From contig JASMLP010000069.1 of assembly GCA_030748635.1 (NCBI GenBank), forward strand, positions 1 to 64,000: a stretch of 64,000 nt of DNA, written 5' to 3'. The notes under the pieces were generated by a model. The model saw nothing but the letters and a program-made list of their open reading frames with translations, had not been told where the DNA came from and did not search any database. Each line of letters opens with the position of its first letter. Position 1 is the first letter of the stretch. A program made the position numbers and the translations under genes. Shown here piece by piece: positions 11,020 to 63,912 of the stretch. The stretch is from Planctomycetota bacterium. Lineage in GTDB: Bacteria; Planctomycetota; JACQVV01; JASMLP01.

Positions 11020-11033
11020 CCGGAGTGTTCCGG
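11020..11033 (+). promoter_or_regulatory. Dyad upstream of the sigma-54 promoter (possible enhancer site)
   Basis: CCGGA-GTGT-TCCGG is a perfect short dyad about 100 bases upstream of the -24 element, a usual position for a bacterial enhancer-binding protein. The site is short and chance is not excluded. Confidence 0.3.
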
Positions 11034-11118
11034 TTAGAAAATTGGGACCGACTCACGGAATAGGCTAACCCCAGGCATATCAAGAAGGCTCATGAGGTCG
11101 GGAAATCGCCGTTAAGGC

Positions 11119-11134
11119 TTGGCACGGCCTTTGC
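11119..11134 (+). promoter_or_regulatory. Sigma-54 (RpoN) promoter, TTGGCACG-N4-TTGC
   Basis: TTGGCACG (11119-11126), a four-base spacer and TTGC (11131-11134) match the -24/-12 consensus YTGGCACG-N4-TTGC at every conserved position. It lies in a 255-base intergenic region, about 98 bases before the start of the TPR lipoprotein gene and in the right orientation. Transcription should need RpoN and an AAA+ activator. It is the only such site I found in an intergenic region of the window. Confidence 0.85.
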
Positions 11135-11231
11135 GTTCTTGAGAACCGGCGCGAAACGCTGATCTCTTTTGGGGATCACAGTTCGTCCTTATTCCCTGAG
11201 AGGATGACCCTAGTTCTGGAGGTTTGAAGAA

Positions 11232-12068
11232 ATGTTCGTAATGAGAAAGTTACGGTACGCGGGACCGTTTTTAGGTGTGCTGGTTTTGTTGGGTTGCGCT
11301 TCCACTTCAACTACGACTTCCAGCTATTCCCCGGGGGAAATGGGAGATCACTCGTATCAGCAAGGTGATCTGGATGGGGCCATTCATCACTACACCAACC
11401 ATCTGAAAGGTGATCCCGGAGATGCTGCGAGGCGGTATTGTCTGGGGATCGCGCTGGAAAGAAATGCGCAATTGGAAGAGGCTCGGATGCAGTTCGAGCA
11501 AGTTCTCCAGGCCCGACCGGCATCCCCGGAGGTGCAATTGGCGTTGAGTCATGTCCTGTATCGGATGGACAACGATGTGGAGGCGGAAGAAATGCTGGGG
11601 AGAGTGATGGTCACCCCCGAGTTTTCGACGATCAGTCCGCTCGACCGAGTGCTGGCCTATGGATTACTGGCTCAGATCGCAATTCGTACCGAGGACCCAG
11701 AAGCTGCGACCTTAGCGTTGGATCGAGCCCTGGCGCTTTCGAGAGAATATCCCGCCCATGTTACCGATGGGCATCTGAGGCGATTGCTCAACAATCGGGC
11801 GATGGTTCTTTTTGGGCTGGGAGAATTTACGGAGGCCCGAGATTCGTATGAAAAAGCGATCCAGGTGAAGGTGGAGGCCGGCGCAGCACGGAGTGATAGT
11901 GAAAACTATATGGCCTGTTATCTCAATTATCTGGCCCGTGACTTTCCTCGCTGTCGAGAGTATTTCGATCAGTTAGCGGATCAGCAGTTGGCTTCGCTCG
12001 GTACGACCACAGAAGATCCCGAATTTTTCAGTAGAAACTCCGACACTTCCGGGGTTTCCAGCCGATGA
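11232..12068 (+). CDS. TPR lipoprotein, first gene of the sigma-54 Tol-like operon
   Basis: A classic lipoprotein signal ends in VLLGC (Cys22), followed by a Ser/Thr-rich linker and about five TPR-like helical pairs (residues about 40-225). TPR lipoproteins of this size act as docking modules in outer-membrane assembly or Tol/Ton-type complexes. A clear GGAGG (11218-11222) lies 9 bases before the ATG. It is the first gene after the sigma-54 promoter, and its stop overlaps the next start by four bases (ATGA), indicating translational coupling. The specific role is inferred from context. Confidence 0.85.
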   Translation: MFVMRKLRYAGPFLGVLVLLGCASTSTTTSSYSPGEMGDHSYQQGDLDGAIHHYTNHLKGDPGDAARRYCLGIALERNAQLEEARMQFEQVLQARPASPEVQLALSHVLYRMDNDVEAEEMLGRVMVTPEFSTISPLDRVLAYGLLAQIAIRTEDPEAATLALDRALALSREYPAHVTDGHLRRLLNNRAMVLFGLGEFTEARDSYEKAIQVKVEAGAARSDSENYMACYLNYLARDFPRCREYFDQLADQQLASLGTTTEDPEFFSRNSDTSGVSSR

Positions 12069-13102
12069 GATTCGATCTCCCATTCTGGATGCTGATCGGC
12101 ATCTGGGGGCTGGGTTCGGTTTCCGTGTCTGGGCAGTGGGCTCCAAAGGGACCCATTCAGGGGCAAGGGAAACTGGAAGAGCTCGATGAGTGGTCGATTC
12201 GACAGGAAGTTCAGACTCTGGAGAGAAGTCTGGCCCAATACGATCCGTTGATTCAGACCTTGGGAGAAGCTCGGGTGGATCTGGACCGGGATCTCGAAGC
12301 TCTTCGGGCTCATCCTGAGGACAGTCGATTGGCGAGTCAAATGGCCCTGAAATTAAGTGCGTACGCACGGGAGATTATCGGGGATTTTGATCGAGTGATA
12401 GATCACCAAGATGCAATTTTGAACACATTCGAAGGGTTGAAGAACAAATTGATTCGTTTCCGTAAATCTTTGCGAAGCAAGGAAGCTCGGTACGGCAGAG
12501 AGATCGAGCGGGTTCGAGAAAAGGATGAAAGTATAGAAGCTCAGTTGAGGGATCTGGCGACTCGCTACAAGGAAACAGTCGATGAAGCGGAACGGAGTAC
12601 GTGTCGGTCGGAATTCACACGTGTCTGGCGACAGTTTCGTATGAATAAACGATTTCTCCAGGGGTACGGGCGCAGTCGTCGAGGATATGAGTCTCTTTCA
12701 GGAAGCCTCGACGCACTTCTCTCTGTTTTCGAAAATCTCGAAAAGGCCTTTGTCGAATTGATCGACAATCTCGGAAGTGAAAAACGGTTTCTCCTGGTCA
12801 GCATCCAATTCCAACAGGACAACCTGAAAGTGACTCGGTTGGTTCATGAGGGGCTTGAGGTTGGCGCAGGGCTTGCCGTGGAGTTAGGGAGTAAAAGGGC
12901 TCGCCTGCTTCATCAGGTGGAGTTGTTCGGGCAGATCCAGGAGCGAGTTCAACAGGGATTGATCCGTTTCACGAACAATCAGATCGATCTGGTAGGTGTT
13001 GCACGAAAGATCGATCGGGTGGGAGCTTTGCAGTCGGAGCCGGATGTAGAACAGGTGATTGACGATTTCTATCAGCGGCCGGTAAGCGGTCAAGAGGAGT
13101 GA
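12065..13102 (+). CDS. Secreted coiled-coil protein of the Tol-like operon
   Basis: A signal peptide (cleavage near SVSGQ) precedes about 310 residues that are nearly all helical and highly charged, with heptad-like segments at about residues 40-75, 95-215 and 240-320. I recognise no enzymatic motif and no family. The predicted location is the periplasm. It is coupled to the TPR lipoprotein gene by a 4-base overlap and is followed after a few bases by a second coiled-coil gene. A structural link between membrane and peptidoglycan is a reasonable guess. Confidence 0.8.
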   Translation: MRFDLPFWMLIGIWGLGSVSVSGQWAPKGPIQGQGKLEELDEWSIRQEVQTLERSLAQYDPLIQTLGEARVDLDRDLEALRAHPEDSRLASQMALKLSAYAREIIGDFDRVIDHQDAILNTFEGLKNKLIRFRKSLRSKEARYGREIERVREKDESIEAQLRDLATRYKETVDEAERSTCRSEFTRVWRQFRMNKRFLQGYGRSRRGYESLSGSLDALLSVFENLEKAFVELIDNLGSEKRFLLVSIQFQQDNLKVTRLVHEGLEVGAGLAVELGSKRARLLHQVELFGQIQERVQQGLIRFTNNQIDLVGVARKIDRVGALQSEPDVEQVIDDFYQRPVSGQEE

Positions 13103-13108
13103 TTTGTG

Positions 13109-13852
13109 ATGGGCGTAAACAAGAAAACAGGAATCGTGGTTCTCGTCATGATGATCGGATTGAATCCGATGGTCACAGGCCAGGAACAAAAGGAGTTCGA
13201 GAAAACTCCTGAAGTGGAAAATCCTTTTCGTCAAATAGAGAAAGGGGAAATTCAGCCCAAAAGTGCTCCTGAAGCGACGCCGGAGCGATCAGATGAAGAC
13301 AAGAAAAAAGAAGGGGAGGAGGTGCGTCGTAATATCGAACACGCGCTTCAGAACTATCGACAGATTCAGGAAAGTCAGAGCGAATCGCGGGTGCGCAATC
13401 TGGATCGTAGGATTCAGGAAAATGAGAGACTTCTCAAAAGAAACCAAACCGCACTGACGAACTACCAGGAACGGGTACGAAAGGCCAAGCTGAATTACAT
13501 TCGTGAATTGTTAGCGCTCAAGGGGGCGCGCAAAGCCAAGAGTATCACGCAGGAGGTGTACGAGGAGAGGCTTCGGAGCCTGGCGAATGAGTATGAGTTC
13601 CGAATCGGTCAACTCGACCGGGATATCGACTATTACCGAAAAGAAGCCGATTCTTCCGGAGATCGACTGGAGAATCTTCAGGAACAAAATCGTATCTATC
13701 AGATGGCTTCACGAAGAACTCGGGCTATCGAAAAGAAAAAGCTTCCTCTGAGTCGTCTCGAGCTACTGCAACAGCAACTCGAAAATGCCCATCAATTTGA
13801 ATTGCAGGATGTATGGGACGGTTCTGACTGGCGATTCTTTCAGATCCGTTGA
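13109..13852 (+). CDS. Second secreted coiled-coil protein of the Tol-like operon
   Basis: The N-terminal hydrophobic segment ends near VTGQE, consistent with a signal peptide. A Pro/Glu/Lys linker follows, then about 170 residues of continuous coiled coil rich in Arg, Gln and Glu (residues about 70-235). No family recognised. The start could be GTG 13106 or ATG 13109; AAGAGGAG at 13092-13099 serves either. It sits between the first coiled-coil gene and tolQ, so it is likely a periplasmic partner of the same machine. Confidence 0.78.
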   Translation: MGVNKKTGIVVLVMMIGLNPMVTGQEQKEFEKTPEVENPFRQIEKGEIQPKSAPEATPERSDEDKKKEGEEVRRNIEHALQNYRQIQESQSESRVRNLDRRIQENERLLKRNQTALTNYQERVRKAKLNYIRELLALKGARKAKSITQEVYEERLRSLANEYEFRIGQLDRDIDYYRKEADSSGDRLENLQEQNRIYQMASRRTRAIEKKKLPLSRLELLQQQLENAHQFELQDVWDGSDWRFFQIR

Positions 13853-13920
13853 TCGACAACGTCAGTTAGACAGGGTTTGGTGGCGGTCTATTTGAGTGTT
13901 CGCGGCTAGGGTTACTGAAG

Positions 13921-14619
13921 ATGTTCTACTCCTACATAGAAAAAGCAGGCATCTGGTGGATGCTTCCGATCCTCGCTCTTTCTGTTGTTGCCGTGGCGTT
14001 CGTTTTGGAGCGGTCTAGCTACTGGTGGTACCATCGGGTGGGGCGAAAAGGTCGAAGAATTTCCCTGGGGCGCTGGGCGTCAGATGCTGAGGATATAGCC
14101 GGCCTACGAGATCAGATCCAAGCGATGAACGACCAGACGGTTGTGCCGTTAGCTACGGTCTTCGATCACCTCGAGAGCGTGGGGGTCAAGGTCGCAGTGG
14201 CTCGGGGAAGAGCCGCGCTGCGCTTGTTGGTCGAAACGTCCGACCGGGGCAGCGATGTGTTGGCACTCATCGCTCGAATGAGCGGGTCTCTCGGATTGCT
14301 GGGAACGGTGGCGGGGGTCAGTCTCTCCTTCGAAACGATGGCTTTAGCGGATCCCAAGGGGCTCGCGTTGGCCCTGTCGACGGCTATGTACACCACCTTA
14401 GGGGGGGTCTTCCTCTTCCTTTTGAGTTCTTTCGCTTTGTTTGTCTTTGAGGGGTTTGGGGATCGAATGGAGGCTCGAATCGAAGAGGAACTGGTCTGGC
14501 TCGAAGATCGCCTGGATCAGTCTGTAGACTCCAGGCCGAAGGATCTGAAAGAGGCGATCCCGCGGCAGAAAGGGAAAACGCTCTCTCTTCCATCCAGGGC
14601 TGTGAAGGTGGACTCGTGA
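13921..14619 (+). CDS. MotA/TolQ/ExbB proton-channel family protein
   Basis: A 232-residue protein with three transmembrane segments at about residues 10-30, 115-140 and 150-178. The second and third carry the family's Gly/Thr-rich core (SLGLLGTVAGVSLSFETMA, LSTAMYTTLGGVFLFL). ExbB/TolQ pentamers with ExbD/TolR use the proton motive force to move a TonB/TolA-like partner. Such a partner is encoded two genes downstream, which supports the role. The end overlaps the tolR-like gene by four bases (GTGA). TolQ and ExbB cannot be told apart here. Confidence 0.92.
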   Translation: MFYSYIEKAGIWWMLPILALSVVAVAFVLERSSYWWYHRVGRKGRRISLGRWASDAEDIAGLRDQIQAMNDQTVVPLATVFDHLESVGVKVAVARGRAALRLLVETSDRGSDVLALIARMSGSLGLLGTVAGVSLSFETMALADPKGLALALSTAMYTTLGGVFLFLLSSFALFVFEGFGDRMEARIEEELVWLEDRLDQSVDSRPKDLKEAIPRQKGKTLSLPSRAVKVDS

Positions 14620-15050
14620 GTCGGGGCACGAGGCGTTCGGTGGGACTGGAAACTACGGTTATGGTGGATGTTCTGTTCATTCTGCTGATATTTTTTATCG
14701 TGGTTTCCCAGATTCGAACCTCTCAGGTCGCGGTGGAACTTCCCAAAGTCGAGGCCGGGAGTGAATCTTCTGGTCCGAAGTCCAAGGAGCGAAAATCGAT
14801 CTTATTGTCGATCGATCGAGAGGGTGCAGTGCGGGTGGATGGACACTTGATGAAGAACTCCGCCGGTTTGAAGAAAGTGCTCAAATACCATGGAAAATCG
14901 TCGGAGAAAGATGTTGGAAGGCCTCGGGTGGTGTTGCATACCGACGCGGCAACGCGAGGCGAAAAACTCGTGGAAATTCTTGCCTATCTGTCCGAAGCCG
15001 GATTGTCGTCGGTCCAATTCGATGTGGACCGAAAAAGGAGTTCGCCGTGA
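14616..15050 (+). CDS. ExbD/TolR family protein
   Basis: A 144-residue biopolymer-transport protein with one transmembrane helix (about residues 15-33) containing the conserved proton-path Asp (Asp18 in VMVDVLFILLIFF), then a periplasmic domain of the usual size. GTG start, 4-base overlaps with both neighbours. It is predicted to form the proton-gated motor with the TolQ/ExbB homologue just upstream. Confidence 0.92.
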   Translation: MSRGTRRSVGLETTVMVDVLFILLIFFIVVSQIRTSQVAVELPKVEAGSESSGPKSKERKSILLSIDREGAVRVDGHLMKNSAGLKKVLKYHGKSSEKDVGRPRVVLHTDAATRGEKLVEILAYLSEAGLSSVQFDVDRKRSSP

Positions 15051-16348
15051 CCCGTCGATCTCGGGATATCGCCTTTCTGCTGATTTCGTTCGCAATACAT
15101 TGGGTGCTTTTTGGGCCATTGTGGGATCTTGAAGAGAAGCCCGAGGACAAAGCAGTCAAACCGCCAACGGTGAAGATCAATATTCCAGTGGTCAAAGCGC
15201 CCGAGGAAAAATCCGAGTCGACGTCAGAGCCCAAAACCAAAGTGAAATCGGCACCGAACGAGAAGATGGATTCCTCGAAAATGAAGTCGGCTGTCAAGCG
15301 GCAGATGGATGATGTGCTGGCTCAAATGCGTGTTCTGAAAACCCGTCAGGCCGATCAAGTTCGGAGGATGCGGGAAGAGTTGGATCGACAAAAAAATCTA
15401 CTGAAGAACCAAGAGAATCAGTTGGAATCCCAGCACCGTGTACTTCGGGATCAGGAGAAAACTCTGGCCGACCAGAAGCAAAAAATGCTCGAAGAGAAAT
15501 CCAAGTCCAACAAGCGTGAACCGGAACTTTCTAAGAAAACTCACTCTCCATCAGCGTCCTCTGAAAGATTTGAAGGGAAAAAGGTTTCGTCCGAATTGCC
15601 AGAAAATCTGCATTCGAAGAGCCCAAAAGTCACGGATCCTAAACTGCTCCCAAGAGCGGAGGAGAAAGTTCTTCCCGAGAGGAGAAGGGTTGAAAAGACT
15701 TCAGATTTCCCGGAAAGACAAAAGGCGTCCGTGGCGACCGATCGACACGCGAGTTCTGGAGAGATCCGGACGATGGAGCAGTACGCTCGATATTTGCAAC
15801 CTCACCTGAGGGCGACCAGTCCCGAGAAGGGAATACCGTTGCTCATGCCTCGGCTCGATCTCGCGGGTCGGGAGGATCTCGTACATCTCATGCGGTATTT
15901 CGATTTCGCTCTGGTCGCCTATCCGGCGGATATTCGAAAACGAAGATTTTTTGTGGAGGTGGATCTCTCCTCCCCCTCGGCCAAATTCGAGCGTAGAGAC
16001 GATTTCAAAAGCTTAGGAAGTCGTAGCGTGATCTCCCTGAGTGGAGAATACTTCCGAGCCTTGAAGTCGTACCTGAGGACTCGGGCTGACCTGTGTCGTT
16101 TCCAAGACGGCGAACTGGTTGTGTCTTTTGTGCCCAGAGGGGCTTTCCAGACCCGATATTTGCAATGGAAAATGCTCAAGGTCTGTCGTGAAAATGGCTA
16201 CGAGCCAGTGGACGTCAGTCATTGCGCGGGAACGTTTCGTCGCACCTCATTCGGTGCGTGGGTCTTTCTGGTGGAGGATCTGGTGACTCGTAAAGGGCGT
16301 TCGGTGCGAGTCCAGGATTTCGAGTATTCCAAGGTTTTTGGATCCTGA
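15047..16348 (+). CDS. TonB/TolA-like periplasm-spanning protein with a novel C-terminal domain
   Basis: One N-terminal transmembrane helix (about residues 8-25) leads into a Pro/Lys/Glu segment, a long Gln/Lys/Arg coiled coil (about residues 80-155), a low-complexity Ser/Lys linker and a globular C-terminal region of about 180 residues starting at MEQYARYLQPHL. The layout (anchor, spacer, globular end) and the position after tolQ-tolR match TonB/TolA. The C-terminal domain, with FDFALVAYP and RFFVEVDLSSPSAKF strands and a few Cys residues, does not look like TonB_C or TolA_C. It is probably the energised effector of the complex; its target is unknown. Confidence 0.75.
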   Translation: MTRRSRDIAFLLISFAIHWVLFGPLWDLEEKPEDKAVKPPTVKINIPVVKAPEEKSESTSEPKTKVKSAPNEKMDSSKMKSAVKRQMDDVLAQMRVLKTRQADQVRRMREELDRQKNLLKNQENQLESQHRVLRDQEKTLADQKQKMLEEKSKSNKREPELSKKTHSPSASSERFEGKKVSSELPENLHSKSPKVTDPKLLPRAEEKVLPERRRVEKTSDFPERQKASVATDRHASSGEIRTMEQYARYLQPHLRATSPEKGIPLLMPRLDLAGREDLVHLMRYFDFALVAYPADIRKRRFFVEVDLSSPSAKFERRDDFKSLGSRSVISLSGEYFRALKSYLRTRADLCRFQDGELVVSFVPRGAFQTRYLQWKMLKVCRENGYEPVDVSHCAGTFRRTSFGAWVFLVEDLVTRKGRSVRVQDFEYSKVFGS

Positions 16349-16396
16349 AGACTCCTTGGGTCCAAAATACGAACTTCCCCGGGGAGGTCGGGTCGT

Positions 16397-16402
16397 TACA
16401 AT
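16397..16402 (+). promoter_or_regulatory. -10 box TACAAT before pspA
   Basis: TACAAT at 16397-16402 has no good -35 at normal distance. Together with the strong GGAGG just before the ATG it suggests that pspA may be transcribed separately as well as from the sigma-54 operon upstream. Confidence 0.3.
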
Positions 16403-16435
16403 GACGCCCACGCCAATCGATGGCGAGGAGGTGTC

Positions 16436-17137
16436 ATGGGTATTCTCGGTCGGGTGTCGGATATTCTGGTGATCGATGTTGATGAGTGGCTCGATCGGTG
16501 TGAAAGCCCCGAAGCCATGTTAGCTCAGGTATTGCGGGAGATGGACGAGAAGATCGCGGAAACGCGGAGAGCCGTTGCTCGGTCCATTGCCTGGTCCCGC
16601 CGCCTGGACGAAGAACTCGGCCAGCACCGGAGAAGTGGTGAAGAGTGGGTTCGAAAGGCGTTTTTGGCCATCGACAAAGGCAAGGACGAGATGGCCCGAG
16701 AGGCTCTGGAGCGCAAAAGAGAGCATGAAGATCTCGCGATCGGTCTCGAGATCGAGTGCCAGGCCGCACGAGGTGATTGCGTGACCTACGAACGTACTTT
16801 GCGAGCCCTTCAGGCCAAGCGAGCGGTGACTCAGCGCAAGGAGGAGACTTTGGCTGCACGGCGAAAAAATGCGGACACTCGATCGGATATCGCCAGTTTG
16901 TCGGAAATTTTCTCAGAATCCTCTGGGGCTCGTACACGCATTCAGCGAATGGAAGATCGGGTGGAGGATCTCGAAGCGCGAGTCGCTGAAGCTGCGGACC
17001 GACCGGTTGAGGATCCTCATTTGAAGGCCGCCTACATGCAACTGGATGGACGTCCAACCATCGACGAAGAACTCGAGGGTCTCAAACGGCGGGTCCATCG
17101 AGAGGGTGAGCCGGTCGTTGAGAACGATTTGAAGTAG
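16436..17137 (+). CDS. pspA: PspA/IM30 family membrane-stress protein
   Basis: The 233-residue protein starts MGILGRVSDIL, the amphipathic membrane-binding helix of the family, and continues as the long PspA hairpin coiled coil (PEAMLAQVLREMDEKIAETR, then KREHEDLA and RKNADTR landmarks). PspA/Vipp1 proteins are ESCRT-III relatives that polymerise on damaged inner membrane. A strong Shine-Dalgarno (GAGGAGG) precedes the ATG. In enterobacteria psp genes are sigma-54-dependent; here pspA lies 87 bases downstream of the last gene of a sigma-54-driven envelope operon, a suggestive parallel. Confidence 0.9.
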   Translation: MGILGRVSDILVIDVDEWLDRCESPEAMLAQVLREMDEKIAETRRAVARSIAWSRRLDEELGQHRRSGEEWVRKAFLAIDKGKDEMAREALERKREHEDLAIGLEIECQAARGDCVTYERTLRALQAKRAVTQRKEETLAARRKNADTRSDIASLSEIFSESSGARTRIQRMEDRVEDLEARVAEAADRPVEDPHLKAAYMQLDGRPTIDEELEGLKRRVHREGEPVVENDLK

Positions 17138-19687: not shown

Positions 19688-21358
19688 ATGAGCCGTTGGG
19701 TAAGCCCTGGATTCATCACGATTTCCGTGCCGATCATCTTGGCTGTCTTTTCTCCGTTAGGTTTCGCGCAAGCGGACGCAAACGAGACGGACCAGCGGGT
19801 AATCGTGGCGGTGGGATACGGTATCGAGCCCGCACGGTACTTTCGAACCGGTCGTGGGCGTTTGATGGCCCGTCGTGCGGCCCAACTCGACGCTTTGAGG
19901 AATCTTTCCGAACGAATGCTAGGGTTGCGAATCGATTCGACTTCTACGGTTCGGGATTTTGTGATGAGCCGCGATCTCGTCAGAACTCATTTTCAGACGT
20001 TTTTGAAAGGAGCTTCCGTTCAGGGGTACGAACGGACCGAGGACGGGATGATCCTCGCCCGAGTTCAGATCGGAGTGGATGGGTTGCGAGAATCGCTGGC
20101 TGAAACCGCTCGTCAGTTTGGTGGAGAACAGTTTACCCCCGAAATGATGCGAAGAATCTCTTACGAACTCGATCATTTCCAGGGGTATGAGACTCGACGC
20201 AGTTACTACGACTTGACTCTGAAGGATTATGTTCCTTTTCCCAAAGGACATCAGTACGGGACTTTGCTTCCCCCTTCACGGAGGCCCAAAAAAGAGAGCG
20301 ACTCTTCGGGAAAACAAGATGGGAAGGGAGACCATTCAGGCTCTGAAGACAACTCGACGATCCAGCCGGAAAAATCCAGCTCTGGAGAGTCCCCTCCGAA
20401 GAAGAAGAATCCTGGGGGACAGGAAAAGGATAGTCTAAGGCTCCGCTTGGAGCATCCAGGGGAGATCGCGGTCAGGAGTGAAGTTCCTGTTGAAGAGCGT
20501 TTCGATGCCGATGGGGTCGTCGATTCGCCTCGCAAAGATTTTTTACAGGAGGCGCCGCCGGAATCCTCGGGCACGGAATCGGAAAAGGAACCCTTGGCGG
20601 GCTCGAAGGGAGAGTTGACGTCGGCTTCTGTGTTCGAACCGGAAACCCGTGGAATTCCAAAGGTTTCATACGTCGAGAGGAAAGTTTACATACCTTCTCG
20701 ATACCTGACTCAAATCGATTCGCAGTGGATTGTGGTGATCTTGTTTCCTCGCCCTCTGGGTCTTCAGCAAGTTCTCATGGAACATGTGCCCGATGATATC
20801 AAGCTGGTCGAAGGGACCTGGAAGACGAACGCCCCGTGGGGGTTTCCGTCCTTGCCCAAAAAAATGGGGAAATCCTGGGCGATTCGGGCTCCAGGGGCCA
20901 CTTTGATTAGCTACGGGATAGGGGGAAACGGTGCCGAACTGATCCGTTTTCGTGGGGAGATTGTCGAGAGAGGGCGTAGCGGATCGATCGATCTGGTACG
21001 GTCCTTCCCCGGCTTGCCGGTTCCAGAGCCTCCTCGGCTGGACCAGAAGCAGCCGGAACTTTTCCTCGCCACTCCGGGAAAGGACCAGGTGGTTGAACAA
21101 GAGGTGGATTCGATCGTGGTGGCCGGAACGGTCGCGGATGGGAGTGGGATTCGATCGATTCTGATGCGTCGTAGTCAAGAGGAGGCTCCGGTCGATCTGG
21201 GGACGGGAGATGTGCTGTCCAGAACCCAGAGGCATCAGGTCGTTCCATTCAAGGGGCGCATACCTCTCAAGGTCGGTTCCAATGAGTTCGAGATCATTGC
21301 GGTGGATATCGTTGGAAATCGAAGTGTTCTCGAGTTCGTGGTTCGAAGAGGTTATTGA
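19688..21358 (+). CDS. Secreted LPP20-like protein with C-terminal Ig-like domain
   Basis: A signal peptide (cleavage near GFAQA) is followed by a domain (about residues 35-145) with the ARRAAQLDALRNLSERMLG helix typical of LPP20/FlgT-like envelope proteins. A disordered Ser/Glu/Lys/Pro region (about residues 195-315) follows, then a beta domain and a C-terminal Ig-like segment (about residues 455-556) ending in GSNEFEIIAVDIVGNRS. It is probably periplasmic or surface-exposed; no catalytic motif seen. It lies directly upstream of the kinase-SUMF1 gene, possibly in one transcript. GGGAG lies 7 bases before the ATG. Confidence 0.78.
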   Translation: MSRWVSPGFITISVPIILAVFSPLGFAQADANETDQRVIVAVGYGIEPARYFRTGRGRLMARRAAQLDALRNLSERMLGLRIDSTSTVRDFVMSRDLVRTHFQTFLKGASVQGYERTEDGMILARVQIGVDGLRESLAETARQFGGEQFTPEMMRRISYELDHFQGYETRRSYYDLTLKDYVPFPKGHQYGTLLPPSRRPKKESDSSGKQDGKGDHSGSEDNSTIQPEKSSSGESPPKKKNPGGQEKDSLRLRLEHPGEIAVRSEVPVEERFDADGVVDSPRKDFLQEAPPESSGTESEKEPLAGSKGELTSASVFEPETRGIPKVSYVERKVYIPSRYLTQIDSQWIVVILFPRPLGLQQVLMEHVPDDIKLVEGTWKTNAPWGFPSLPKKMGKSWAIRAPGATLISYGIGGNGAELIRFRGEIVERGRSGSIDLVRSFPGLPVPEPPRLDQKQPELFLATPGKDQVVEQEVDSIVVAGTVADGSGIRSILMRRSQEEAPVDLGTGDVLSRTQRHQVVPFKGRIPLKVGSNEFEIIAVDIVGNRSVLEFVVRRGY

Positions 21359-21366
21359 GTGGGGTG

Positions 21367-23265
21367 ATGGTAGACGATCCCCTGATCGGTAAAGTTTTCG
21401 CTGGGTGCCGAATTACTCGCAAGATTGGCGAGGGAGGTATGGGTGCGGTTTATCTCGCGGAACAGGGATCCCTGGAGCGTCATGTCGTCCTGAAAATTCT
21501 GCATGCGGATCTGGTTCGCCGAGAGGAGTTCGTCCGGCGTTTTTTACGGGAAGCTCGATCCGCGGCCCAATTGCAGCACCCTGCGATTGTTCAGGTTTAT
21601 GATCGTGGGGAAGTGGAGGGTACGTACTACATTCTCATGGAATACGTCGAAGGGGTGAGTCTCTCCGCTCTGATCAAGAGTCAGGGAAAGCTCTCCGTGG
21701 TCGAATCGGTAGATATCGTGTTGCAGGCTGCCAAAGGACTTGCGGCAGCTCATCGATCCGGGATCGTGCATCGTGATATCAAGCCAGCCAACATCATGTT
21801 GACCGACGATCTGGTGGTCAAGGTGGCCGACTTTGGGATCGCCAAGGATTTGCATTCAGAGGAGACGCAGATCACTGCCAACGATTACCTTGTGGGGACC
21901 TTGCCGTACATGTCTCCCGAGCAGTGCGAGGGGAAGGATCTGGACGGTCGGGCCGATATCTATTCCCTTGGAGTCTCTTTTTATCAGATGGTGACCGGTC
22001 AGCGACCGTTTCAGGGGAAAAGTACGGTCGATTTGATGCGACAACATCTCTACGAGTTGCCGGTTTCAGCTCGTGACCGTTTGCCGGGAGTTCCGGCCGA
22101 AATTTCGACTGTGATCGATCGGATGCTCGTCAAGAATCGGGAGGAGCGGTACGCGAATTGTGAAGAACTCGTGAAAGATCTCGAGCGATTCAAGACATAC
22201 GCTCTTTCCAAAATGGAGGAATCCACATCCGTCGATTTAACCGGTGAGGGGGTGGGGAAGTCTTCGGCCGGGGCGAATCATGGCTTGGGCTGGTTGGTGC
22301 TGGGGCTGATCGGTATGGCTGGACTGGGATTGATCGCCACGAATTTTGGTTGGTTGCATTTTGGGCCCGCATCCAAGGCAAAGGATTCTGTAGAGTCCCA
22401 AGTTCAAATGGATCGGCTCTGGAAACGTTTTCACGCCCAGAAAGACCAGGGAGGATTCGGGCGGGCGTTAGAGACTCTGGAGCAACTGGAGAAGATCGAA
22501 CCGGATCGTCGCATCCTGGAGGAAAGGAATGGGATTGTCGACGGATTGACCCGTTCAGGAATGGTACTCATTCCGGAAGGACCGTTTACTTGTGGGACTC
22601 ACGATGGGCCCGCAGAGGAACCGGCGCATCTCCTCTCGCTGCCCAATTTTTGGATCGATGCGATGGAGGTGACTTGCGAAGCTTATCAGCGCTTTGTCGA
22701 AGCGAGCGGGCATCCTGCGCCCGTTGGTTGGCAGGACGGGAAGATGCCCGCAGGGAAGGGAGATCATCCGGTGACGGGAGTTCGCCTTTCGGATGCGAGA
22801 GCCTATGCTCACTGGATAGGAAAGGCTCTCCCGACCGAACAGGAGTGGGAAAAGGCTGCTCGCGGTCGGGATGGGCGCCAGTGGCCCTGGGGCGATCAGT
22901 ACGAAGCGGGGCGAGCGCATCTTGCACCCTCCGTACCCGTCGGTTCTCGCCCTGAACCTTCCACTGTTCCGGTAGGGTCCATGGAGGGAGACCGAACCCC
23001 ACTGGGAGTTCGGGATCTGATGGGTAATGTGCGCGAGTGGACCGATTCTCGTTATGCTCCCTACCCGGGAGCGACTCCGGGGCGTTGGTGGTTTGGAACG
23101 GAAGAATTCGTTCAAAAAGGGGGCAGCTTTCGGTTACTGGCTGACAGTCGAGGGAAATATATCCCTCGGGCATCGACTCGTTATGGGGCCCTTCCAGGTC
23201 AATCTCTGGAGGATGTGGGCTTTCGATGTGTGTACCGGGGAGTGGCTGGGCAGGACAAAGATTGA
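21367..23265 (+). CDS. Transmembrane Ser/Thr protein kinase fused to a SUMF1/FGE-like domain
   Basis: The N-terminal Hanks-type kinase (about residues 12-275) has the Gly loop GEGGMGAV, VVLKIL Lys, catalytic HRDIKPANIM, DFG and SPEQ, and so looks active. One transmembrane helix (about residues 300-325) separates it from a coiled linker and a C-terminal FGE-sulfatase domain (about residues 395-630) with LPTEQEWEKAARG, WPWG, DLMGNVREWT and GFRC. In true FGEs this fold oxidises a sulfatase Cys; in kinase fusions it is usually a ligand-binding C-type-lectin-like module. ATG 21367 is preferred to TTG 21355. The 3' end overlaps the convergent pabA-like gene by 67 bases. Confidence 0.92.
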   Translation: MVDDPLIGKVFAGCRITRKIGEGGMGAVYLAEQGSLERHVVLKILHADLVRREEFVRRFLREARSAAQLQHPAIVQVYDRGEVEGTYYILMEYVEGVSLSALIKSQGKLSVVESVDIVLQAAKGLAAAHRSGIVHRDIKPANIMLTDDLVVKVADFGIAKDLHSEETQITANDYLVGTLPYMSPEQCEGKDLDGRADIYSLGVSFYQMVTGQRPFQGKSTVDLMRQHLYELPVSARDRLPGVPAEISTVIDRMLVKNREERYANCEELVKDLERFKTYALSKMEESTSVDLTGEGVGKSSAGANHGLGWLVLGLIGMAGLGLIATNFGWLHFGPASKAKDSVESQVQMDRLWKRFHAQKDQGGFGRALETLEQLEKIEPDRRILEERNGIVDGLTRSGMVLIPEGPFTCGTHDGPAEEPAHLLSLPNFWIDAMEVTCEAYQRFVEASGHPAPVGWQDGKMPAGKGDHPVTGVRLSDARAYAHWIGKALPTEQEWEKAARGRDGRQWPWGDQYEAGRAHLAPSVPVGSRPEPSTVPVGSMEGDRTPLGVRDLMGNVREWTDSRYAPYPGATPGRWWFGTEEFVQKGGSFRLLADSRGKYIPRASTRYGALPGQSLEDVGFRCVYRGVAGQDKD

Positions 23266-56431: not shown

Positions 56432-56460
56432 AGTCTAGCGTTTTGGGTGTTGGCCCTCAA
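56432..56460 (-). promoter_or_regulatory. Sigma-70 promoter TTGAGG-N17-TAGACT for the sigma-factor gene
   Basis: -35 TTGAGG (56460-56455), spacer 17, -10 TAGACT (56437-56432), 14 bases before the ATG. The leader would be only about 8 bases. Confidence 0.5.
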
Positions 56461-56467
56461 GAATTGG

Positions 56468-56473
56468 TATGCT
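56468..56473 (+). promoter_or_regulatory. -10 box TATGCT for the kinase transcript
   Basis: TATGCT lies 8 bases downstream of the -35 of the divergent sigma-factor promoter, so the two promoters are back to back. The best -35 (TTGGGT) is at 19 bases. Confidence 0.35.
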
Positions 56474-56503
56474 GGCTTTACTCGAATCGAGAGAAGGAAA
56501 AGG

Positions 56504-56569
56504 ATGATCGAGATTCGAATGTGCCCGCTACATTCTCCTCTGATGTTCGTATCAGGACCGGGACAATGA
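56504..56569 (+). CDS. 21-codon upstream reading frame coupled to the kinase gene
   Basis: ATG 56504 has AAGGA at good distance and encodes a 21-residue peptide (MIEIRMCPLHSP...). Its TGA overlaps the kinase ATG as ATGA at 56566. It may act as a leader peptide for translational coupling. It is too short for the peptide itself to be assigned. Confidence 0.4.
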   Translation: MIEIRMCPLHSPLMFVSGPGQ

Positions 56570-59451
56570 AGGACCCTAACGACGATTTAACTCGAGTGGA
56601 TGTCGATCATCGATATCGGCGCCTTGGACGGCTCGTGGGGGATCGAGGGGAAGAAGAGATCGGTCTGATCGTGGACGATCGGTATCGGATCGAGGAACGT
56701 ATCGGTCGGGGTGGAATGGGGGAGGTCTTTTGTGCGAGGGATCTGAAACTGAACCGTCAGGTGGCGGTCAAGGTCGTCACGGCGCGTGGACAGGGAAGTG
56801 ATGGGTGGCGCGCTCTGGCTGATCGGTTTCAGGGAGAGATCGAAGCTCTTTCTCAGCTCGAACATCCGGGAATTGTGCCGATACACGATTGCGGACGTTT
56901 TCCAGATGACCGCTACTATTTGACGATGCAATATGTATCGGGCGACACCTTCAGTCGCTTGATCGCACAGGGTGCGGCCTTGAGGACCTTGCTCGGTTAT
57001 GTCATCGAAATGTGCGAGATTGTTCATGTCGCACACGAGAAGAAAATTGTTCATCGCGACTTGAAGCCCGATAACGTCATGATTCGGGAGGACGGTCGGG
57101 TTGTCGTTCTGGACTGGGGAGTTGCCAAGGTCCTCGGGCGGGCCATCCCCGTCACCCCCGATTCGGAATTCGATGGGACTGAACGTACCCAGGTTGGAGA
57201 TGTGATCGGAACTCTGGCGTACATGGCTCCGGAGCAGGCCGTTGGGGATCATGGTCGTGTGGGAGTTCGCAGCGATGTGTATTCGGTCGGAGCGATTCTC
57301 TACCAGATTCTCACGGGAGTCTCTCCCTATCGATCGGCTTCCATTGAAGGGTTGCTTCAAATGGTGCAGAGAGGGGAATTGGTGCCTCCTTCCGTGAGGA
57401 CCGAAGATCGGAGGGTCGATTCCGAACTCGAGGCTCTGGTGTTGCGGGCCATGGCCTTCGATCCGTTGGATCGGTATGCCAGTGCGTTGGAATTGCGAGC
57501 CGATCTGCTGGCCTATCTGGAGGGACGCCCCCTCCGGGCGGTGGCTTATTCACCTTGGCAACTCGGTCGGAAGTGGGCGCGGAGGAATCGAGCTCTTTGC
57601 GGCGTGGCTCTGGGTCTGTGTTTCCTGGGACTTCTCCTCTGGGGCGGGAGTCGCTGGAAGGATTCTCGGGAGCGAAATCAGCGATTTGTGACCTACCTGG
57701 AAAAAGCACGTTCGCAGTACGCTTTGCTGCCGTCTTTGGTGGATCTCTTACCCCGGGAGCAGGAGGAAAATCGTCTGCGGGTGCGGTCGGAGTCGCCAGA
57801 AGTTGTGTTCCGTCGACAGGAATCGATACGTCACCTACTCCGGGTGATCGCCACGCTCGACCAGGCTTACGCGTTGCGACCGGGAGATCCGCGTGTCCGT
57901 GGGATACGTATCCGGATGGGGCTTGAACTGGGCCAATTGGCGTTGGCAGCCGGAAACGACTTGCTGGCAGAGCGGAGCTTTTCCGAGTTGAGTTTCTACG
58001 GGATGGCACCGAGCGATATCTCCCGCTGGCTGGATCGGGTTGATCGCGCCCGGACGGCGACTTTGCGATCCCGAAAGATTCGTTTGACCGAGATGTTGAA
58101 AAGTTTGCGAGAGGTGGAGGGGAATCTACACGGAGGAGTCGAAGATCTGGTTTTCGAGGCGGCGCGGTTTCAGGATGTCCAAACCGTGGAGGTTCTGGAG
58201 GCGGAAATGAATCTTCTGATTGACCGTATTCGGTCGGAAGGTTCGCAGGCACTCTGGAGTCAGTCGGAGCGAGATCGTGCCGTGTTTTGCTGTCGGGTGC
58301 TGGGGAGGATCGGGATGGTGGAGAGCGTTCCGGTGCTGGCTCGTTGGCTGGAGGCGGTTGAGGATGAGGATCTACTCTTCGAGGCGGCTCGAGCTCTGTG
58401 CTACACCCGACTTCAGGAAGCCTATCAGCCTTTGCTGAGTTTCATCTTCGGGATGGCGGTGGAGTCTGGGGACTCGAAATCGAGGGTTTTCACAAAACTT
58501 CAGCCTTGGTTGGGCTTGGTCCCCGAATCCGAGGAGAATTCCTCCCGCTCTCCCTCTCAGAGGGCGTTCGAGCGCGGAGTGTGGGCTTTGGTTCGAGGAA
58601 AATTTTCTGTGGCTATCCGCTATCTCTCCGAGCTGTCTGAGAGGGAATCTGAAGAGGCGAAAACATATTTGTGGAGAGGCATTGCCTATATGAAGTCCGG
58701 GCGGTTGGAGGAGGCAAAGGCTGATTTCAAAACCTGCCAACGTCTCGGTCCTCCTCGCGCGAGTGTGTCGAACTGGCTGGGTGTCTTATCCAATCAAAAA
58801 GGGAAATTCCGAGAGGCTCTGGCGCATTTCGAAGAGGCCTTGCGGATCGACCCCGGTCTGGCCACGGCTCATCTGAACTCCTTCATAAGTTACTCTCGGG
58901 TGGGCGACCTGAATCGGGCCCAAGAGGCGATCGATCGGGCGCTGGAAGTGCGATCCGATTTTGCGGAAGCTTGGTTCAATCGTGCCGCGTTTCGTCTAGA
59001 GCAAGGTCGGATTGAGCAGGCCCTCTTCGATCTCGGGCGAGCTCTGCTCTATCGCCCTGAAATGGAGTTGGCGCATCTCCTTCGGGCACAGATCTTTCTT
59101 CAAAGACATGAGTTGGAGGAAGCTCGTCGCTCTTGTGAAGGGGTGCTGCGCAAAAGAAAAGGCGACATCAATCATACCCGGGCTCTGGTTCTTCGGGCTC
59201 AGATCTGGTTGGCTTCCTGGCAAAAAGAACCGGCGGATGAAAAAACAGCGAAAGCTCGGACTTTGCTTGACCAGGCGATTCGGCAGCATCCCCAGTTTTC
59301 TGATTGCTATCTGTTTCGGGGACATATCCATCGTATCGAAGGCCGGTCGAAGGAGGCGACAGAAGATTATGAGAGGTGCCTCCGCCTCAATCCGAATCTT
59401 CCCGGACGCCTCGATCTCCAGCGATATATTCGGGAGCATCGGGCGAAATAA
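56566..59451 (+). CDS. Large transmembrane Ser/Thr protein kinase with TPR repeats
   Basis: From ATG 56566: 961 residues. The N-terminal kinase domain (about residues 40-325) has GRGGMGEV, VAVKVV, HRDLKPDNVM, DWG in place of DFG and APEQ; DWG occurs in active bacterial Hanks kinases. One transmembrane helix (about residues 340-362) follows, then a long helical region and six or more TPR units to the C-terminus (ALAHFEEALRIDPGLATAHL and similar). It is presumably membrane-bound with the TPRs outside the cytoplasm. Divergent from the ECF-like sigma factor, it is a likely partner in one signalling unit. Confidence 0.93.
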   Translation: MKDPNDDLTRVDVDHRYRRLGRLVGDRGEEEIGLIVDDRYRIEERIGRGGMGEVFCARDLKLNRQVAVKVVTARGQGSDGWRALADRFQGEIEALSQLEHPGIVPIHDCGRFPDDRYYLTMQYVSGDTFSRLIAQGAALRTLLGYVIEMCEIVHVAHEKKIVHRDLKPDNVMIREDGRVVVLDWGVAKVLGRAIPVTPDSEFDGTERTQVGDVIGTLAYMAPEQAVGDHGRVGVRSDVYSVGAILYQILTGVSPYRSASIEGLLQMVQRGELVPPSVRTEDRRVDSELEALVLRAMAFDPLDRYASALELRADLLAYLEGRPLRAVAYSPWQLGRKWARRNRALCGVALGLCFLGLLLWGGSRWKDSRERNQRFVTYLEKARSQYALLPSLVDLLPREQEENRLRVRSESPEVVFRRQESIRHLLRVIATLDQAYALRPGDPRVRGIRIRMGLELGQLALAAGNDLLAERSFSELSFYGMAPSDISRWLDRVDRARTATLRSRKIRLTEMLKSLREVEGNLHGGVEDLVFEAARFQDVQTVEVLEAEMNLLIDRIRSEGSQALWSQSERDRAVFCCRVLGRIGMVESVPVLARWLEAVEDEDLLFEAARALCYTRLQEAYQPLLSFIFGMAVESGDSKSRVFTKLQPWLGLVPESEENSSRSPSQRAFERGVWALVRGKFSVAIRYLSELSERESEEAKTYLWRGIAYMKSGRLEEAKADFKTCQRLGPPRASVSNWLGVLSNQKGKFREALAHFEEALRIDPGLATAHLNSFISYSRVGDLNRAQEAIDRALEVRSDFAEAWFNRAAFRLEQGRIEQALFDLGRALLYRPEMELAHLLRAQIFLQRHELEEARRSCEGVLRKRKGDINHTRALVLRAQIWLASWQKEPADEKTAKARTLLDQAIRQHPQFSDCYLFRGHIHRIEGRSKEATEDYERCLRLNPNLPGRLDLQRYIREHRAK

Positions 59452-60120: not shown

Positions 60121-63100
60121 TTAAGTGGTGGAGAACTCGAGAGCGTCTTCGGTGCGCGTGGAGGTGGCCTCCAGAGTTTCGGAGATTCCTTCCGCGGGGT
60201 TCCATAGGGAACGGTCTCGAGCTTCGAGCAGCGTGTCGACCATGGCGCGGAAAGCTTCGGGATTGAGCTCGGCTAGCTGTTCGGCCATGGCTCGATCTTC
60301 GACGAAGGTTCGGGTGGTTTCGTCGAACACCCAGTCTTCGAGGCTTCGGGTGGTGGCCTGGAGACCGTAGAGGTTCTCCAGACGGGTTCGCAGTTCGGTG
60401 ACGCCTTCATACCCGTGGTCGATCATGGCGGAATACCATTTGGGGTTGAGCAGTTTCACCCGGGCCTCCCGCTGGCCCAACTCCTCGAGTCGGTCGATTC
60501 GGCCCAGAGCCGTGGTGGTGTCAGCGAGATAGACTTCGGCTCGACGACCGGTCTTCTCCTGAATCTGAAGGGAAAGCCCGCCAAGATAGTCGAAGTAGTG
60601 GTCCACATCGCTGAGGCCGATCTCCACCGAGTCCAGCGACTGGAGGACGCAGTCGGCGGTTCCGGTGAGTTCTCCGTAGAGATCCTGTTTGCGAACCAGC
60701 CCTTCACCGGAGACGAAGGCGAACGATTTGCGACTCCGGAAGATCTTGGCCAGTTCGGCATCGTTTTCCCAGGCTCCGGTATCGAGCGCGTAGTTGAGGT
60801 TGCCTCCGTAGGCTCCCGGCCCGTTGCCAAAAATGCGAAGACGGGCTTCCTGGGGAGAGAGTCCGGACGTTTCGAGAGATCGGGTCCGTTTTCGTATCCG
60901 ATTGGACGCTTCCGGTTCGTCCAGGTCGGCTACGGCTTGAACCGCCGAATCGAGCAGCGCCATCGATCCCGGAAAAACATCTCGGAAGATCCCGCTTACG
61001 GTCACCACGACATCGATTCGGGGGCGTTCAAGCTCCGCGAGAGGGATGGGGGTCACGACGCGGAGTCGACCGAGAGAATCTTCGGATATCCGGACCCCAA
61101 GGAGTTCGAAGGCGATGGCGAGGCTCTCTCCCCCGGTTTTGATGTTGTCCATGGCCCAGAGGACGAGCGAGACCGATTCGGGGAGTTCACCCCGATCTTC
61201 GACGCATCGGTCGAGAAAGCGTTTTACGGTGATCCGGGCCACGCTGCGAGCCGATGGAGAGGGGATATGGTCCGGGGAAAGTCCGTGGATATTGCGACCG
61301 GTGGGGAGCACCGAGGGGTTGCGCAGAGGATCGCCGCCGGGAGACGGGAACAGGTATCGACCACGAAGAGCGGCCCGAAGAGCTTCGAGTTCTTGACCGG
61401 CTGCGAGGTCCGAACGAAACCGTTCCAGAAAGTTGGCCAGGGATCGAAGGGATGCGACCGGTTGGCCAGGAAGGTCCTGAGCCAGGGTGTCGGGAGACTC
61501 GCCGGCTAACAGTTTCTGGACAATCGCGCGCGACTGATCTCCGAGCGATCGGATGCGTAGGGCAGCGGACGCGTCTCCTTTTCGGGCTCGATCCTGTAAG
61601 GTTTCGACCGGATCTTCTCCGGCTTTTTGCAACAGTCGAGTGATCGATGTGAGGCCCTGCTCGGGGCGATCGAAAGCCGCCGCATGGGTCATCTGTTCGA
61701 GTCGTTCTTCCCCTTTGGGATGTCGACCGAAAACGTGGAGCCCGCTGGCGATCAGTGTCCCTTCCAGTTCATACAGCGCGGTGAGCCAGCGATCGATCGC
61801 TCGATCTCGATCTTCTCCCTCCCGAGGCGTGGGGAGGTGGGCTCGATCCGCCGTGGCCAGGGCGGTCTCGAAGAGGGCGGTGCGTCGGGCCGGCTCGGAT
61901 TCACGACGGTAACTCAATGCGAGGTCTTTGAGGTTTGCGAGTTCCTTGTAGAGTCCGGCTTCGACTAGCGGTGGGGTCAGGTGACTGATCAGCGCCGCGG
62001 AGGAGCGACGACGGGCAATGGCTCCTTCGGCGGGATTGTTCACATTATAAACGTACAGGTTGGGTACATCTCCGATCAGTCGGGTCGGCCAGCAGTCGCC
62101 GGAAAGCCCGGCTTCCTTGCCCGGCATGAACTCCAGGGCTCCGTGGGTTCCCAGGTGGATGACTGCGTCCGCGGCAAAGACATCTCGGACGTAGGTCTGG
62201 TAGGCGGCGAATCCGTGCGTGGGTGAGGCGTCTCGTACGAAAAGGAGTTTCATCGGGTCGCCGTCGTAGCCAAATCCTGGTTGCGCTCCAACGAAGATGT
62301 TTCCGTACCGAACGGCGAAAAGGATCAGATCGGATCCATCCACGAAGAGAGCGCCCGGTGCGGCGCCCCAGTGCCGTTCGATTTCGGAGAGTCCCGCGGT
62401 GTGTTGGCGGTAAGTCGGTAGGTCGATGCGTAGGGGGTGGGTCTCGGTCAACTCCCCCTCGGCAGCACGTTCCATGTCTCGGAACTGCTCCAGAATCTTT
62501 TCCGGCGTTTCGGGAATGTCGCCCACATCGTACCCATCGGCTCGTAAAGTGAGCAGAATCTGATGAAGGCTCTGAAAGACGTCTAGATACGATGCGGTTC
62601 CGAGGGAGCCGGTTCCCGGAGGATATCGGAAGAGGCTGATAGCGATCTTCAGGTTTTCTCGGGGTTGGGTACGCAGACGGGTCCATCGCCGGACGCGTTC
62701 GGCAAATCGCTCCAGGTTGTCGGGATCGACGGAACGTCCGATCGGTTCGGTTTCGCTCCGACCCGGTCCGGCCAGGACCGTCGGTTCGATTCCTCCGTCG
62801 AGTTCGGGAAGAGCCACGTTGAGAGCGACCTGGACCGGATGAAGACCCTGGTGGCTACGGTGCCATCGGTCGAGCGTTTGGAAAGAGAGATGGATCGGTA
62901 CCAGATAGGGAACATCGAGCGGTCGTAGCGCTGCGATTGCTTCCTGAGGGCGGCTTTCGACGTGACCACCGACGAGCGGAAAACCGGCAAGGTTGACCAG
63001 GATATCGATGGCCAGCGGTTCCAGTCGGGCGAGTACGGGTCGATAGTCGAAGATCGAACCAAAAACGACCAAGGCGTTGAGTCGACGGCTCTCCAGGGCC

Positions 63101-63912
63101 TCGACAAGCGCTTCGATCGGAAGGGTGTCGTTGGCCAGGATCTGGCCTCTCAGGACCAGGATGGCGATTCGGGGGCGATGAATGCGCTCCGGCTCCAGCG
63201 ATTCGAGAGCCTGGATCAGTTTTTCAGGAGTCGAGTGGATCGTTCCTGTTTTGGGATGCCAGGCTCCGGTATCCGGATATCGGCGAGAAGCTCCGTAGGT
63301 CCCGGAAAGTTCTTGATATCCGTGGTGACGGTGGGCGACTCGAAGAATGAGATTGCGAATGTTCTCCGGGCTTCCTTCCATCCAGGCGGTGTAGCTCTCG
63401 ATGAAGGTTCGCATGTCCCCGAGTCGGCCGGGAATTAGGGCGAGGAGGCGAGGAAGGATGGTCAGGAAACGTTTCAGAAGTTTCTGGACCCGAGGATTCT
63501 GGAAAAAATGTCGGAGCGTAGAGGGAGCGGGGCCCCGTGATTGGGAAGGGCTCTTTTTCTTCGAGGTCTTTCTCATCGAGAAACGACCGACTCGTATCAG
63601 TTGCATGACTGCGCCGGACGAATGAAACGCCAGAGATGTGGTTTCGGGTCGCAGATGATCTCGGGCCAGTTCCACTAATCGTTGCGCGTGAGCTTCTTCG
63701 TGCAGGTGGGAGATCAGGACGAGGTCCGATTCGCTCAGAACCTGCGCGCAATGTTCACGATCCCGATTGCGCTGGACTTCAGATATGTCGATGACTTCGA
63801 AATGGATCGGAAAATGTGGCTGAGAGGAGGGATCGTTCAGTTGGTGGCAGGCTTGTTGAAGGGCGGCTGCACCCATCCCGTCCAGGGAGATGAGAGTCAC
63901 TCGAAAACTCAT
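60121..63912 (-). CDS. bchH: Magnesium chelatase large subunit (BchH/ChlH type)
   Basis: The 1263-residue length and motif order match BchH/ChlH rather than CobN. These include the N-terminal DUF3479-like region with WMEGSPENIRNLIL, YPDTGAWHP, VFGSIFDY in place of the family's FAGGLDF, LHPVQVALNVALPELDGGIEP, then GNIFVGAQPGFGYDGDP, HLGTHGALEFMPGKEAGLSGD and NNPAEGAIARRR. The subunit binds protoporphyrin IX and, with BchI/BchD, inserts Mg2+, the committed step of (bacterio)chlorophyll synthesis. BchI and BchD are not in the window. A CobN-like cobaltochelatase role cannot be fully excluded. It overlaps an upstream reading frame by ATGA, so it is probably inside an operon that continues beyond base 64000. 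Confidence 0.92.
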   Translation of the reverse strand: MSFRVTLISLDGMGAAALQQACHQLNDPSSQPHFPIHFEVIDISEVQRNRDREHCAQVLSESDLVLISHLHEEAHAQRLVELARDHLRPETTSLAFHSSGAVMQLIRVGRFSMRKTSKKKSPSQSRGPAPSTLRHFFQNPRVQKLLKRFLTILPRLLALIPGRLGDMRTFIESYTAWMEGSPENIRNLILRVAHRHHGYQELSGTYGASRRYPDTGAWHPKTGTIHSTPEKLIQALESLEPERIHRPRIAILVLRGQILANDTLPIEALVEALESRRLNALVVFGSIFDYRPVLARLEPLAIDILVNLAGFPLVGGHVESRPQEAIAALRPLDVPYLVPIHLSFQTLDRWHRSHQGLHPVQVALNVALPELDGGIEPTVLAGPGRSETEPIGRSVDPDNLERFAERVRRWTRLRTQPRENLKIAISLFRYPPGTGSLGTASYLDVFQSLHQILLTLRADGYDVGDIPETPEKILEQFRDMERAAEGELTETHPLRIDLPTYRQHTAGLSEIERHWGAAPGALFVDGSDLILFAVRYGNIFVGAQPGFGYDGDPMKLLFVRDASPTHGFAAYQTYVRDVFAADAVIHLGTHGALEFMPGKEAGLSGDCWPTRLIGDVPNLYVYNVNNPAEGAIARRRSSAALISHLTPPLVEAGLYKELANLKDLALSYRRESEPARRTALFETALATADRAHLPTPREGEDRDRAIDRWLTALYELEGTLIASGLHVFGRHPKGEERLEQMTHAAAFDRPEQGLTSITRLLQKAGEDPVETLQDRARKGDASAALRIRSLGDQSRAIVQKLLAGESPDTLAQDLPGQPVASLRSLANFLERFRSDLAAGQELEALRAALRGRYLFPSPGGDPLRNPSVLPTGRNIHGLSPDHIPSPSARSVARITVKRFLDRCVEDRGELPESVSLVLWAMDNIKTGGESLAIAFELLGVRISEDSLGRLRVVTPIPLAELERPRIDVVVTVSGIFRDVFPGSMALLDSAVQAVADLDEPEASNRIRKRTRSLETSGLSPQEARLRIFGNGPGAYGGNLNYALDTGAWENDAELAKIFRSRKSFAFVSGEGLVRKQDLYGELTGTADCVLQSLDSVEIGLSDVDHYFDYLGGLSLQIQEKTGRRAEVYLADTTTALGRIDRLEELGQREARVKLLNPKWYSAMIDHGYEGVTELRTRLENLYGLQATTRSLEDWVFDETTRTFVEDRAMAEQLAELNPEAFRAMVDTLLEARDRSLWNPAEGISETLEATSTRTEDALEFSTT

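Follow-up and report, generated by a model that had tools for sequence, protein, structure and literature searches.

A predicted sigma-54-controlled operon encoding a putative Ton/Tol-class trans-envelope machine in Planctomycetota

Force transducers that link the proton gradient of the inner membrane to the outer membrane come in few known types. In the TonB2 system of Vibrio, which works in iron uptake, the genes lie in the order TtpB2-TtpC2-ExbB2-ExbD2-TonB2-TtpD2, and both the TPR protein and the DUF3450 protein are essential (PMC6957404). In a 2025 survey, transducers with vWA domains are described from PVC bacteria beside TPR-tolQ-tolR-tolR genes, and SHLS is given as the motor-binding motif of TolA/TonB (PMC12204202). 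Another 2025 survey, on sigma-54, predicts that this factor controls envelope genes in Planctomycetia and TonB in Flavobacteriia (PMC12316311). The operon analysed here is not described in the passages of the two surveys that were consulted, and searches of open-access papers gave no description of it.

The operon lies in a 64,000-nt stretch of DNA (referred to as the window) from a metagenome-assembled genome of a deep-branching member of the Planctomycetota (4.2 Mb, 217 contigs). The seven open reading frames are located where a preliminary description had placed them, and the succession it gave is correct: a -24/-12 site is followed, all on the forward strand, by genes for a TPR lipoprotein (11232..12068), an exported, predicted all-helical protein (CC1; 12065..13102), an exported coiled-coil protein (CC2; 13106..13852), an ExbB/TolQ-type motor subunit (13921..14619), an ExbD/TolR-type subunit (14616..15050) and a TonB/TolA-like force transducer (15047..16348), with pspA (PspA/IM30 family, PF04012, 8.5e-33; 16436..17137) as the neighbouring gene. 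Most junctions had been described as 4-base overlaps, which holds for three of the six (TPR/CC1, ExbB/ExbD and ExbD/transducer), whereas CC1-CC2, CC2-ExbB and transducer-pspA are separated by 3, 68 and 87 nt, respectively. A SpoU-type rRNA methylase gene (Pfam) is found upstream of the operon, as in several relatives, and the gene 3' of pspA is an FHA-GAF-PP2C gene. Elsewhere, the window encodes a formylglycine-generating-enzyme (sulfatase-modifying) domain fused to a protein kinase (21355-23265), many TPR repeats fused to a Ser/Thr protein kinase (56443-59451) and a large CobN/magnesium chelatase-like protein with a DUF3479 domain at its N-terminus (60121-63912).

Conservation of the gene order, on which the preliminary description had staked its proposal, was found, the complete order TPR-CC1-CC2-ExbB-ExbD-transducer being present at 14 loci from 14 different genera; the closest relative with the locus belongs to the same taxonomic order as the window genome. 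Outside the complete loci, some copies are cut by contig ends, and CC2 was not recognised in one genome (G194). At two loci (L063 in genome G050 and L081 in genome G308) the order is TPR-CC1-CC2-transducer, the ExbB and ExbD genes being missing from their usual place, and the motor may be borrowed from elsewhere. Of the 392 Planctomycetota genomes sampled, 26 encode CC1, and a wider profile raised this to 27 by adding one marginal case. The C-terminal domain of the transducer was found in 24 of the 392, 23 of which also carry CC1. Because of this co-occurrence in 23 genomes (hypergeometric P 7e-33), CC1 and the C-terminal domain are assigned, from sequence, to one system. Three genomes have CC1 without the C-terminal domain, and in two of these a contig end cuts the operon. 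A contig scan with the CC1 sequence alone gave no match, a scan with the CC1 alignment returned three Planctomycetota contigs, and a search of plasmids for CC1 returned none. The window genome contains a second CC1 gene (contig C37:8138-9184, L011), which is solitary, with no motor genes beside it, adjoins a DsbD-like gene and has its own sigma-54-like site, TGGAACGTGCCTTGC, 62 nt before its start.

No pspA gene was found beside any of approximately 20 other copies of the operon, so the operon is taken to comprise the six genes from 11232 to 16348, and its end should fall at 16348. PspA had previously been regarded as part of the system, and an inducible envelope-repair machine acting with it had been proposed. 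In the window, pspA is indeed the next gene on the same strand, no terminator-like site lies between it and the transducer gene, and NtrC-type control would suit a stress response; the presence of a PspA protein next door and the use of sigma-54 also recall the enterobacterial Psp response. The arrangement with pspA 87 nt downstream is, however, confined to the window genome, other genomes showing no linkage of pspA to the operon. In addition, pspBC and pspF were not seen nearby, and pspA itself is not preceded by a sigma-54 site in the window scan. PspA was therefore rejected as a component, and as it is not part of the conserved system the repair proposal is left unsupported and very improbable.

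The motor subunits carry the domains of ExbB/ExbD proton motors (MotA_ExbB, PF01618, 5.5e-11; ExbD, PF02472, 1.6e-21). In alignments of nine orthologues, the pore threonines T129 and T158/T159 in the transmembrane (TM) helices of ExbB are kept, and the proton-carrying TM aspartate of ExbD, D18, is invariant. Four MotA/ExbB-type motors are encoded in the genome. One is a flagellar MotAB and another is the motor of the operon; the remaining two are an ExbB accompanied by two ExbD genes and a small ExbB-like protein whose partner is a coiled-coil protein. At L170:4632-6595 (contig C188 of the window genome, G000), the partner of an ExbB-like protein is a protein of 424 aa in which an N-terminal helix resembling that of ExbD (TPLLDVVF) precedes a long coiled coil, but which has no ExbD domain match; this pair is possibly a different motor-arm fusion.

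The transducer has the layout of TonB/TolA proteins, with an N-terminal TM helix containing SFAIH (S14-H18), a charged coiled-coil linker (approximately residues 60-240) and a globular C-terminal domain (residues 241-433, 15767-16345). An SxxxH motif is present in 13 of 17 transducers, that of the window included, against 1.1 expected from shuffling, and is absent from the other four, among them the transducer of the nearest relative. SxxxH corresponds to the SHLS motif by which TolA and TonB bind their motor (PMC12204202). Its exact spacing is that of E. coli TonB. Together with the motor residues, this motif supports the view, put forward in the preliminary description, of a proton-powered Ton/Tol-like transducer. 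In two transducers (L013:5037-6947 and L063:4176-5963) extra sequence directly follows the TM helix, and their N-termini are alike in this part; one transducer homologue matches the bacterial Ig-like family Big_2.

The window transducer gave no match above cut-off in Pfam or NCBIfam, to TonB_C and TolA or to any other family, and no TonB/TolA Pfam match was obtained with 16 transducer homologues. An AlphaFold2 model of the domain (four sequences; pLDDT 78, pTM 0.73) had no match at E <0.001 in the PDB or BFVD, and sequence comparison with the PDB gave no convincing relative, weak matches to adenylosuccinate synthetase (E ~0.03) being judged to be due to chance. As neither a family nor a PDB fold match was found, a TonB or TolA C-terminal domain was rejected, in agreement with the earlier suggestion of a novel effector domain. 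The same results bear on whether the operon encodes an ordinary TonB system, the arm of which would open TonB-dependent receptors for nutrient uptake, with the extra proteins being accessory as in Vibrio TonB2. Such a system would be consistent with the ExbB-ExbD-TonB order and the SxxxH helix, with the one TonB-dependent receptor plug encoded in the genome, and with the need of Vibrio TonB2 for a TPR and a DUF3450 protein (PMC6957404), but it is made unlikely by the C-terminus and by the receptor being the only one in the genome, with none beside the operon. The vWA transducers (PMC12204202) resemble the present one in occurring in Planctomycetota with a TPR gene, motor genes, an SHLS-bearing arm and a non-TonB C-terminal domain, but differ in that here there are one ExbD rather than two, two coiled-coil proteins, and a C-terminal model unlike vWA or any other solved fold.

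The TPR protein (Pfam TPR; lipobox LLGC-A) has orthologues as the first operon gene in other genera, most of which have a lipobox, and Asp at position +2 was seen in none of the readable ones. In E. coli, a lipoprotein without Asp at +2 is directed to the outer membrane, and on this rule the TPR lipoprotein is predicted to be anchored there. The preliminary description had regarded the two coiled-coil proteins as novel, and each is indeed treated here as a new family. No Pfam family above cut-off was found for CC1, CC2 or the C-terminal domain of the transducer; CC1 in addition had no NCBIfam family, and its model, all-helical and of low confidence (four sequences; pLDDT 67, pTM 0.47), matched no solved fold, while the position of CC2 between CC1 and ExbB is conserved. 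Identity of CC1 or CC2 with DUF3450 (TtpB) was considered and rejected, as a genome search with PF11932 gave no match in the operon at E values up to 10. The operon resembles Vibrio TonB2 in that a motor and a TonB-like arm are encoded alongside a TPR protein and another protein whose function is unassigned, and in that several Planctomycetota copies have a second TPR gene directly after the transducer. It differs in that CC1 and CC2 are not DUF3450 proteins, no TtpC was seen, the arm is without a TonB C-terminal domain, and control is predicted to be by RpoN. The layout is thus similar to that of TonB2/Ttp, with accessory proteins that are unrelated by the tests made.

A divergent Tol-Pal-like system, serving outer-membrane stability and division, could explain why the operon ExbD scores best with TolR. 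Likenesses to Tol-Pal (TolQRA-TolB-Pal-CpoB) include the ExbB/TolQ and ExbD/TolR motor, the SxxxH TM helix, a long periplasmic helical linker recalling TolA and a TPR partner recalling CpoB. On the other hand, gene maps of the window and of relatives showed no TolB or Pal within or next to the copies inspected, the C-terminal domain is unrelated, and the patchy distribution (approximately 7% of the sampled phylum genomes) and sigma-54 promoter are unlike a housekeeping division system, so that this possibility appears quite improbable.

The -24/-12 (sigma-54) promoter-like site TTGGCACGGCCTTTGCG (11119..11135, forward strand) is intergenic, has GG-N10-GC spacing and lies approximately 97 nt before the first start codon. 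Sites were scored with a matrix that is our own weighting of the consensus in the literature; on this scale the site, with 23 of 24, had the top score in the window (runner-up 21; Markov-shuffle p 0.0005), and it is one of six exact TGGCACG-N4-TTGC sequences in the genome. For 20 operons in different genomes, two of which (L069 and L070) share one genus and are not independent, a 250-nt region was taken whose 3' end lies 45 nt before the codon for the lipobox Cys in the TPR gene, and its best score was compared with Markov shuffles. Sites scoring at least 20 of 24 were found upstream of 12 of the 20 operons, where 0.59 were expected and the reverse strand gave one (P combined by Fisher's method ~1e-17 forward, 0.84 reverse), the fixed, Cys-anchored regions leaving out a site within the signal-peptide coding part of L013. 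A good site was absent from approximately 8 of the 20, and control may therefore differ between lineages. The match in the window could be a coincidence, with the housekeeping polymerase transcribing the operon, and genome-wide the 80 matches with at most one mismatch are just a moderate excess over the 59 of a reversed control. The strand-specific occurrence of sites before the TPR gene in 12 of the 20 operons, the activator genes that adjoin the operon (see below) and the lack of a sigma-70-like site between 10900 and 11300 nevertheless make a chance match highly improbable. Further sigma-54-like sites in the window genome (L114, L116, L128, L129, L132, L138 and L139) precede a flagellar rod-like gene, a lipoprotein gene and genes for secreted proteins, which suggests that the RpoN regulon is chiefly concerned with the cell exterior.

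The window genome encodes RpoN and more than 20 sigma-54 activator domains, both of which the control proposed in the preliminary description presupposes. RpoN was found in 23 of 25 operon genomes and also in 17 of 17 sampled genomes without the operon, and its presence was therefore dropped as a discriminator of operon carriers. An NtrC-type sigma-54 activator gene adjoins the operon in four lineages (G016, G083, G043 and G308), which lends independent support to sigma-54 control. In the first three of these, genes for a TPR protein, a histidine kinase and an NtrC-type response regulator lie within several kilobases after the operon, the regulators of G083 and G043 being 56% and 53% identical, respectively, to that of G016. 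In G308, the promoter site of which is a full match, the transducer ORF overlaps at its end with the gene of a response regulator that contains a sigma-54 activator domain. In G177, TPR and kinase genes lie beside the operon, and the closest regulator is encoded elsewhere. The best candidate for a cognate activator in the window genome (contig C28) scored no higher than general paralogues, and nothing convincing was found in a search for activator-binding repeats upstream of the promoter. From the conserved promoter sites and the neighbouring activator genes, the operon appears to be under sigma-54 (RpoN) control, as had been proposed.

We propose, with a probability of roughly 0.7 and on sequence evidence, that the six genes encode one RpoN-switched trans-envelope machine of the Ton/Tol class, activated by an NtrC-type regulator; of this proposal, the assembly of a complex, the transmission of force, the target and the signal for induction are the inferred parts. 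An ExbB5-ExbD2 motor in the inner membrane would draw on the proton gradient and move the TonB/TolA-like arm (the 15047 product), docked through its SxxxH TM helix. The arm would span the periplasm by its coiled-coil linker, and the new globular C-terminal domain would grip a putative outer-membrane or periplasmic partner. The TPR lipoprotein, CC1 and CC2 may form a periplasmic scaffold or adaptor, by analogy with TtpD (TPR) and TtpB (DUF3450), which are thought to act alike in Vibrio TonB2. RpoN polymerase would read the operon once an NtrC-type two-component activator switches it on, so that the machine would be made only upon a signal. Instead of serving transport or stability, the machine might power gliding, secretion or a structure on the cell surface. 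Such a role would accord with the sigma-54 sites that also precede a flagellar rod-like gene and several genes for secreted proteins or lipoproteins in this genome, and with the gliding and secretion driven elsewhere by motors of the same class (PMC12204202); in the flanks examined, however, genes for secretion, pili or adhesins are not consistently found with the operon, and this role is considered rather unlikely. Most probably, the operon encodes an inducible machine of the Ton/Tol class that acts on a new target.

The chances are about even that the operon represents a proton-powered trans-envelope machine of a further type, to be set alongside Ton, Tol and the vWA transducers. Such a machine would be inducible through RpoN, its effector would have a new fold and its scaffold would draw on two new families; so far it has been seen only in Planctomycetota, the phylum whose genomes were sampled. 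The envelopes of Planctomycetota are poorly understood, and the operon offers a defined, mostly single-copy and probably inducible machine. As its effector domain belongs to no known family and a regulator gene lies beside the operon in some genomes, both its target and its signal can be searched for directly.
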